The notes beneath the pieces are model-generated. The model ran no database searches. It was not told the origin of the DNA and was given only the letters and a program-made list of their open reading frames with translations. The position numbers and the translations under genes were made by a program. A stretch of DNA of 32,395 nucleotides from Gammaproteobacteria bacterium (GTDB lineage Bacteria; Pseudomonadota; Gammaproteobacteria; Pseudomonadales; Oleiphilaceae), in contig JAUIAZ010000007.1 of NCBI GenBank assembly GCA_030427465.1, forward strand, positions 1-32,395, in the 5' to 3' direction. Positions 3,935-29,030 of the stretch are shown one piece after another. Position 1 is the stretch's first letter. Each line of letters starts with the position of its first letter.

Positions 3935-5041
3935 ATGGAGTTTGATGAAGAGATAGTCAGGGAAGTCATGGACTCCTTCAATGACCTCTACACCGAGATT
4001 GATGGCCTTCTGGTTCAGCTCTCCGATCATGGCGCCGATGACCCGGACCAGCTTCATGCCCTGTTCCGGGCGGTACATTCCGTTAAAGGCAATGCCGCCA
4101 TGCTACAGGTTGATCCGATCGTTCACTTTACCCATGCGCTGGAAGAAATCGTTGATTCACTGCGTGCCGGCCGCTATCCGCTGACCCGTCTGATCTGCGA
4201 GGTTCTGCACCTGGGAATGGACCGGGTGCGTGATCTGCACCACCGCGACATCATGGGGCTTTCCGCAGACAATTTGCAGGAGGAGACGATCGGACCGCTG
4301 ATGAAGCAGATGGCCGAGAAAGAACCGGGCGAAATTGAGCAGGCCGCTTATGAAGTACTGGCGGCTTTTGGTGTGGAAATGGCCGTGGCCGAACATGCTC
4401 CGGAGCAAAAGGCCGCTGCGGTTTCCGGGAACGTGGTGTCCGTTGCTTTGGGCGATGAACGACGCCGTGCTGACCTGGACCTGTTCAGGTCACTGGCCGC
4501 TCAGGTCGATCAGCAAAGCCAGTTCTGGGAAGGCCGCACCCAGAACATTTTCAGCTGGGCACAGAAACTCAATGAAATAGCCGGCTCACCGGTCGACTCA
4601 CAGCAACTGGCTGCCGCAATCTACATGCACGATATCGGCATGGCCTTTGTGCCTTCACGCATTCTGGACAAGGAAGGGAAGCTGAGTGCGGAAGAAGTTG
4701 CGCAGATCCGTCATCACCCCACCTGGGGACACGGCCTTCTGAGCCGCATGCCGGGCTGGGATGAGGCGGCGAGGATGGTACACGAACATCAGGAACACTT
4801 TGATGGCAAGGGATACCCGCAGGCGCTCGCCGCTGAGAGTATTCATCCGGGTGCCCGGATACTGGCCGTGATTGACGCCTTTTTCTCGATCACCAACGGA
4901 CGCGCAGACCGCAGTCAGCGCCGTTCCGTGGTCAGGGCGGTATCCGAGCTCAATGCACGCTCGGGATCCCAGTTCGACCCGGCTTGGGTCAGCGCGTTCA
5001 ACGATCTCGTCAAAGCGGAAATCAAGGCAGGCAATCTGTAA
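3935..5041 (+). CDS. HPt domain plus HD-GYP-like domain protein
   Basis: N-terminal HPt motif LFRAVHSVKGNAAML. C-terminal MHDIGMAFVPSRILDKEGKLSAEEVAQIRHHPTWGHGLL...HEHQEHFDGKGYP resembles HD-GYP. Confidence 0.85.
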   Translation: MEFDEEIVREVMDSFNDLYTEIDGLLVQLSDHGADDPDQLHALFRAVHSVKGNAAMLQVDPIVHFTHALEEIVDSLRAGRYPLTRLICEVLHLGMDRVRDLHHRDIMGLSADNLQEETIGPLMKQMAEKEPGEIEQAAYEVLAAFGVEMAVAEHAPEQKAAAVSGNVVSVALGDERRRADLDLFRSLAAQVDQQSQFWEGRTQNIFSWAQKLNEIAGSPVDSQQLAAAIYMHDIGMAFVPSRILDKEGKLSAEEVAQIRHHPTWGHGLLSRMPGWDEAARMVHEHQEHFDGKGYPQALAAESIHPGARILAVIDAFFSITNGRADRSQRRSVVRAVSELNARSGSQFDPAWVSAFNDLVKAEIKAGNL

Positions 5042-27549: not shown

Positions 27550-27930
27550 ATGCCCCAGGCCACAGAACAATCCCTGCTGAAAAAATGGCAGGGCCCCCTC
27601 GGCAGATACAGCCTGCTGACCCTGTTTGCCGGAATTCTGCTCGTGGCGCTGCTGCCAAGCGAGAACCTGCCGCAGACGCAACACCTCACGGACAAATGGC
27701 AGCACGGGCTGGCCTTCTTCAGTCTGACACTGATGTTGGGTCTTCACAGACCGCAGTGGCAGGGAGGCCTGCTGCTCCTGATGATGGCGGGCTATGGACT
27801 GCTGATGGAGGGCCTGCAGGGCTTGAGTGGCTATCGTCTGGCTGAATGGGGCGACCTTCTGGCTGATATGCTCGGTACACTGGTCGGGCTCTTTGTGCGC
27901 TTTGTCATACGGAAGCGATACCTGTTGTAA
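27550..27930 (+). CDS. VanZ-like family membrane protein
   Basis: LPQTQHLTDKWQHGLAFFSLTLMLGL...LMEGLQGLSGYRLAEWGDLLADMLGTLVG, VanZ-like signature. Confidence 0.85.
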   Translation: MPQATEQSLLKKWQGPLGRYSLLTLFAGILLVALLPSENLPQTQHLTDKWQHGLAFFSLTLMLGLHRPQWQGGLLLLMMAGYGLLMEGLQGLSGYRLAEWGDLLADMLGTLVGLFVRFVIRKRYLL

Positions 27931-27944
27931 GAAATCTCTTACAA
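27925..27944 (+). promoter_or_regulatory. GacA/UvrY-type upstream activating palindrome TTGTAAG-AAATCT-CTTACAA
   Basis: Exact match to TGTAAG-N6-CTTACA with perfect 7-bp arms; overlaps the vanZ stop codon; upstream of a GGA-repeat small RNA. Confidence 0.85.
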
Positions 27945-28100: not shown

Positions 28101-28106
28101 TACAAT
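28101..28106 (+). promoter_or_regulatory. Candidate -10 element TACAAT for the small RNA
   Basis: TACAAT just before the first GGA-rich segment; no good -35, consistent with an activator-dependent promoter. TATAAT at 28020-28025 is an alternative. Confidence 0.45.
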
Positions 28107-28111
28107 GGGAA

Positions 28112-28302
28112 CCATGGACGAAACGGAAAGGACGACTGCAAGGACGTTATCTCGACAGGATGTTCGAGGGAAGCAAGGACTTACGGAAGCGGCTTGAGGG
28201 ATTTTTCTAAAGGATTTAGTGGAGACAGGGAGTCTTCAATCAGGGAAGACTGAACAGGGATTGTCCAGACATGAAAAGGCGCCAGGAAGGCGCCTTTTTT
28301 TT
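28112..28302 (+). ncRNA. CsrB/RsmZ-type CsrA(RsmA)-sequestering small RNA (5' end uncertain)
   Basis: 16 GGA motifs between 28108 and 28287. Hairpins presenting GGA/AGG: CTCGA-CAGGATGT-TCGAG, CTAAA-GGA-TTTAG, AGTCTTC-AATCAGG-GAAGACT. Terminator AAAAGGCGCC-AGGAA-GGCGCCTTTTTTTT. GacA-type palindrome upstream. No plausible conserved ORF. Confidence 0.88.
28274..28302 (+). terminator. Intrinsic terminator of the small RNA, probably bidirectional
   Basis: AAAAGGCGCC-AGGAA-GGCGCCTTTT plus further Ts: 10-bp perfect stem, 8-T tract; the A-tract on the left arm makes it usable from the minus strand. Confidence 0.9.
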
Positions 28303-28340: not shown

Positions 28341-29030
28341 TCAGCCCGCCTCGCCTGAACGGTAAAGACGAACCTGTCTGAACTCTGCCAGTTCACCCAG
28401 ATCTGGCCAGGTTATTGCCTCACCCTGCCCCCAAAGCCTATACCCCGGTTCCTCGAGGTTCCGCACCCGGGAATCTGCCAGCCAGACTTCAGCAGCCAGA
28501 CCTCTGAACTGCTGCAGGAGCGGACGATTGTCCGCGTCATACAGAATGTCTGCGGCGGTAACCAGATCAAACCCTCCCTGTGCCGGGAGTTCCCGCTGCC
28601 AGTCTACCTGGACACCCATCGCTGCGGCATTCGCTGCGATGGCCAGGCCTGCACCAGAGTCGCAGTCACAGGCGACAACTTCAGCAGCCCCAACCATTGC
28701 TGCGGCGATGGCCACCACGCCGGAGCCGGAGCCGACATCCAGCACACGACGACCACTCACCTGGTCCGCGTTATCCAGAATCCATCGTGCCAGCACCTGG
28801 CCACTGGCCCAGCAGAAACTCCAGTATGCCGGCTCAGCGACCGCTGCCTGGGCTTCCTCATGGGTCAGGGGCTCACTCATGCTGAGTGGATCGACCAGCA
28901 TCAGAGAAATTTCCGGCACCAGCGGCAGTGGCTGCAGGGAAAGTTTCCGGCCCGGCAAGCCCTGCCAGAAATACGCCTGCAATTTGTCTGTGAGGGAAAA
29001 AGAATGGTCTTTTGCCGTTAAATTATCCAC
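28341..29030 (-). CDS. Class I SAM-dependent methyltransferase, ETFB-lysine/PrmA-like
   Basis: GRRVLDVGSGSGVVAIAAAMVGAAEVVACDCDSGAGLAIAANAAAMGV...FDLVTAADILYDADNRPLL. Confidence 0.88.
   Translation of the reverse strand: MDNLTAKDHSFSLTDKLQAYFWQGLPGRKLSLQPLPLVPEISLMLVDPLSMSEPLTHEEAQAAVAEPAYWSFCWASGQVLARWILDNADQVSGRRVLDVGSGSGVVAIAAAMVGAAEVVACDCDSGAGLAIAANAAAMGVQVDWQRELPAQGGFDLVTAADILYDADNRPLLQQFRGLAAEVWLADSRVRNLEEPGYRLWGQGEAITWPDLGELAEFRQVRLYRSGEAG

Follow-up and report, generated by a model that had tools for sequence, protein, structure and literature searches.

The window analysed in this work is a stretch of 32,395 nucleotides from the draft genome of a bacterium of the family Oleiphilaceae (contig JAUIAZ010000007.1, positions 1 to 32,395). 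An earlier note on this DNA had read the interval 28101-28302 as a CsrB/RsmZ-class small RNA that acts as a sponge for CsrA. The question was whether this interval is really an independent gene of that class, or whether its richness in GGA triplets has another explanation. We consider it highly probable that the region is a stand-alone gene for a CsrA-sequestering RNA of about 190 nt, switched on by GacA.

GGA content and predicted structure of the RNA

Counting in 28101-28302 gave 16 GGA triplets, all of them between 28108 and 28287, as the earlier note had claimed for about 180 nt. This was the maximum per 180 nt on either strand of the window, the next best stretch of the forward strand having 10 and the best of the reverse strand 9. 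The value of roughly three triplets expected by chance, also proposed in that note, holds as the window-wide average (mean 3.0 per 180 nt, sd 1.9) but not for the local base composition (6.8 expected) nor for dinucleotide shuffles (10.3), at least 16 triplets being found in 4 of 2000 shuffles. Since composition and shuffles already give such numbers, the count is partly plain G/A richness, and the GGA density taken alone is suggestive but not decisive.

The predicted fold was more stable than those of the shuffles (z −2.4), and the GGA bases had a mean unpaired probability of 0.64 vs. 0.43 for the whole RNA, only 2 of 15 motifs being predicted as buried. The RNA thus shows the multiple GGA motifs (15-16), many in exposed hairpin loops, that characterise the CsrA-sequestering class. 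The hairpins listed previously were all present in the fold, on the forward strand. The hairpin CTCGA-CAGGATGT-TCGAG (28151..28168; in RNA, CUCGA-CAGGAUGU-UCGAG) carries GGA in its loop and sits where the relatives have the covarying helix 2. In CUAAA-GGA-UUUAG (28207..28219) the GGA is the whole triloop, with an unpaired probability of 0.59, and AGUCUUC-AAUCAGG-GAAGACU lies at 28231..28251. Both the fold and a terminator scan identified an intrinsic terminator at 28273..28302, with an 11-bp stem, the AGGAA loop (hairpin 28273-28299) and a T-run after it. The 5′ hairpin of the relatives, GUCA-AGGA-UGAC, is degenerate in the window RNA. Regarding coding potential, few of 30 relatives had an open frame over the 135-nt core (6, 2, and 3 for the three frames, respectively); there is no conserved reading frame and the 65-aa ORF of this interval is spurious, as had been supposed.

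Predicted GacA site, putative promoter and RNA start

A perfect TGTAAG-N6-CTTACA palindrome, reading TGTAAGAAATCTCTTACA, was found at 27926..27943 (no strand assigned). It matches the consensus of the GacA upstream activating sequence (UAS; PMC4950607) with 0 mismatches, its position and spacing are conserved in the relatives, and the 3.96-Mb draft genome has no second exact copy. This predicted GacA/UvrY-type site is the best evidence that the earlier note overlooked. From its start to the start of the covariance match described below (28111) there are 185 nt; the sites of rsmY and rsmZ, with the same consensus, are at −75 and −196, respectively (PMC4950607).

A putative −10 element, TACAAT, is located at 28101..28106 on the forward strand, and TATAGT or TATATT is found at the same place in the relatives. 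No good −35 was identified upstream of it, and a generic sigma-70 promoter scan reported no promoter there. Activator-dependent promoters usually lack a good −35. By its position 3′ of TACAAT, the RNA start is most likely near 28111-28114, and therefore the GGA at 28108 is probably upstream of it. As a result, the interval 28101-28302 proposed previously stands overall, its left boundary being slightly off. From the covariance match and the GGA counts, the gene was placed at 28111..28302 (forward strand, about 190 nt, 15 GGA).

Covariance and conservation

The covariance model R1 was built on 30 aligned relatives with the window excluded, and its consensus consists of hairpins bearing GGA in their loops. 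Searched against the window, it gave a single match, 28111-28232, of 52.6 bits (E = 5.7e-15), so that a window-free model places this RNA in a family of the Marinobacter clade. No other convincing match was found in the genome of the organism; the remaining hits scored at most 17 bits, and the ones inspected were rejected, as they seemed to be protein-coding and their GGA counts were unremarkable. Across 196 genomes of the order, convincing R1 matches were confined to this family in a scan filtered so strictly that weak members may escape it. One hit outside the family (L112 in genome G258, E 6e-4), with at most 10 GGA and coding-like surroundings, was judged to be due to chance.

In the sequence-only alignment of the 30 relatives, 96.4% of the pairs were standard, and cells changed on both sides numbered 24 vs. 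8.5 in shuffles, none of the 500 shuffles being as high. Pairing collapsed once the partners were slid by 1-3 columns, a control biased in favour of the structure because this was derived from the same alignment. The GGA loops are carried on the covarying stems while the spacer sequence drifts. When the window was compared with the four relatives nearest to it, 33 of 42 GGA columns were invariant, compared with 28 of 116 in the rest of the RNA and 14 of 157 in the spacer between site and RNA. Conservation of motifs within drifting sequence is a further trait of the CsrA-sequestering class, and it is the opposite of the pattern, conserved flanks with unconserved GGA, that the earlier note had named as refuting its reading. 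Judged from these alignments, the conservation of the GGA columns reflects selection on the presumed CsrA motifs.

Genomic context and distribution among relatives

The RNA gene lies between a VanZ-like gene (27550..27930, forward strand; Pfam PF04892, 29.7 bits, just below the cut-off of 30.1), which is context only, and a class I methyltransferase gene of the PrmA/Methyltransf_16-like type (28341..29030, reverse strand; conserved beside the RNA in the relatives), which is the constant neighbour. Pseudomonas rsmZ lies near rpoS. That neighbourhood is not shared here, and the flanks agree with the position previously described.

A search of the taxonomic family for the exact UAS led to five genuine sponge RNAs, of which four share the locus of the window RNA and one is of a second type. 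The layout of the window, a GGA-rich RNA behind an exact site, was repeated at four loci (L009, L011, L012, and L015), in three of which the same methyltransferase is downstream. The upstream gene varies (PhoR in L009; divergent genes of the response regulator or CysZ-like kind in L011, L015, and L012), and the RNA is retained despite this change. This search overlooked most Marinobacter since their usual site, TGTGAGATATNTCNNACA, has diverged from the exact palindrome. A DNA-level search of the relatives found them too diverged, the sole match being a terminator-like fragment.

Using the methyltransferase as bait, 80 loci of named genomes were collected, spanning Marinobacter, Hahella, Halospina, Halovibrio, Tamilnaduibacter, Mangrovitalea, and some more distant groups. 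With at least 11 GGA in 200 nt of the best strand as threshold, 69 of the 80 loci were GGA-rich, or 68 after discounting L053, which exceeded the threshold without a UAS and looks coding. In 68 of 80 the GGA-rich RNA is opposite in strand to the methyltransferase, and most have a UAS-like site. The distance from UAS to RNA was 185-190 nt in all 50 loci in which both ends could be measured automatically, and 185 nt in the window. Cultured species with the orthologue include M. similis (L051) and M. salarius (L086). The loci without the RNA belong mostly to Cellvibrionaceae, Pseudoteredinibacter, Oleiphilus, and other non-Marinobacter lineages. Synteny and conservation, proposed earlier as a check, thus hold across Marinobacter and relatives. 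Separately, one metagenome-assembled genome (L057, about 4300-4783, reverse strand) showed an apparent internal duplication of a hairpin module giving a longer sponge, in which GGATGGTTTCTTCGCACGGACTGCGAAGGGAAGCAAGGATGAGGGA comes after a first copy.

Comparison with known systems

At both gathering and relaxed thresholds, Rfam gave only chance-level or sub-threshold matches in the window. Neither CsrB (RF00018), PrrB_RsmZ (RF00166) and RsmY (RF00195), the families in which the earlier note had suggested looking, nor CsrC (RF00084) reached its gathering threshold, the best score of the class being 14.2 bits for CsrB against a cut-off of 71. Likewise, no family was above cut-off in 20 relatives. 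The same tool gave 380 bits for E. coli csrB as positive control. As this RNA was detected and the tested members were not, identity with RsmZ or CsrB in the Rfam sense does not hold. In one close relative (L106, 1623-1739) a CsrC score of 21.2 bits (E 0.005, cut-off 61) hints at a distant similarity. The window RNA is a clade-specific RNA of a known class, and the branch formed by Marinobacter and relatives is missing from Rfam.

Pseudomonas RsmZ, RsmY, and RsmX (RF00166, RF00195) also have many GGA hairpins and an intrinsic terminator, and rsmZ shares the perfect upstream palindrome at a similar distance (about 185 nt here; −196 in rsmZ, PMC4950607). However, they differ in their neighbours and in the lack of an Rfam match for the window RNA, which has about 15 GGA whereas RsmY has 7 (PMC4950607). 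E. coli CsrB and CsrC (RF00018, RF00084) have a similarly high GGA content, 22 and 14, respectively (PMC11882849), and the proposed mechanism is the same; CsrB is 369 nt long, the window RNA is shorter, and its similarity to both is only sub-threshold. Pf1-Pf3 of Pseudoalteromonas fuliginea, recognised by GGA repeats, promoter, and terminator, are likewise clade-specific marine Csr sRNAs (PMC9927453, PMC11882849). In contrast to the window RNA, they belong to a different order and were experimentally tested; the window RNA has a clear GacA palindrome. The literature search retrieved no paper about this RNA in Marinobacter or Hahella, where it may nevertheless have been predicted before.

Pathway genes and a second candidate RNA

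The genome of the organism encodes CsrA, GacA, and GacS, as expected for this class of RNA. The canonical CsrA gene sits after lysC. The GacA orthologue, with 55% identity to E. coli UvrY, is directly upstream of uvrC, which is the classic arrangement. The gene for the GacS/BarA-type kinase is split over two contig ends (C281 and C486) that share an overlapping protein stretch of 41 letters, and for this reason the split was attributed to a break of the draft assembly and not to a broken gene.

The majority of Gac/Csr systems employ more than one sponge RNA. With this in mind, an intergenic stretch of contig C167 (L115, 1848-2159, forward strand) was considered a candidate partner sponge. It has a near-perfect GacA site (TGTAGGAAAATGCTTACA) and an intrinsic terminator with GGA in its loop. 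Counted from the site up to the terminator there are 10 GGA, of which about 9 lie behind the site; a DNA search gave no homologue, and the evidence is much weaker than for the window RNA. In a relative (G060, L010), a GacA site at 1518 is followed on the reverse strand by a second GGA-rich RNA, which reaches to about 1270. This RNA precedes a gene for a ComEA-like helix-hairpin-helix protein and is separate from the methyltransferase-linked RNA. It matched R1 weakly (14.6 bits).

Alternative explanations

The GGA richness could be a compositional accident of an intergenic region devoid of RNA function, and the shuffle mean of 10.3 does account for much of the count. Composition offers no reason, however, for the conserved GGA columns, the covariation, the fixed distance to the GacA site and the synteny over many species, and the match of the held-out R1 model refutes it; we give this explanation practically no weight. 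The position of the RNA, downstream of vanZ and on the same strand, would also suit a cis-acting leader or the 3′ UTR of the VanZ-like gene. This is very improbable, because the upstream gene changes in the relatives and the RNA stays, because the RNA has its own UAS, −10-like element, and terminator, and because the gene that follows has the opposite orientation.

There is also precedent for GacA-dependent sRNAs that do not titrate RsmA, such as RgsA (PMC2375449), so that the window RNA might act mainly by other means, for instance Hfq base-pairing, with CsrA binding as a secondary property. Nevertheless, RgsA has one GGA and the window RNA about 15, conserved and mostly exposed, and we regard such a role as no more credible than a leader or 3′ UTR. 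The anatomy, conservation, covariation, and pathway genes were all observed directly, and the RNA is real, conserved, and previously unannotated. Its reading as a CsrB/RsmZ-class sponge is very probably correct, given the conservation, the GacA site, the synteny, and the CsrA, GacA, and GacS genes, and the view that it works like CsrB/RsmZ is strongly supported. All the computational checks able to contradict this reading came out in its favour.

Proposed mechanism and significance

By analogy with its class, the gene would be expected to work as follows, from transcription under GacA control to the binding of CsrA and the effect downstream. When GacS/GacA is active, phosphorylated GacA would bind the palindrome at 27926-27943 and turn on the promoter about 185 nt downstream. 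The transcript of about 190 nt would stop at its own terminator and display about 15 GGA, many in hairpin loops. Each RNA could then take up several CsrA dimers, releasing the mRNAs that CsrA represses.

Beyond this locus, we lean slightly towards a clade-wide family of GacA-driven sponges, absent from Rfam and kept at one locus beside the methyltransferase throughout Marinobacter and relatives, which would work together with a second unlinked sponge and may have arisen separately from Pseudomonas RsmX/Y/Z. Although the sponge principle is already established, the R1 model could extend RNA annotation where Rfam sees nothing. For Marinobacter and its relatives, which form a widespread marine group, this RNA seems to be the RNA component that the Gac/Csr switch had been lacking.
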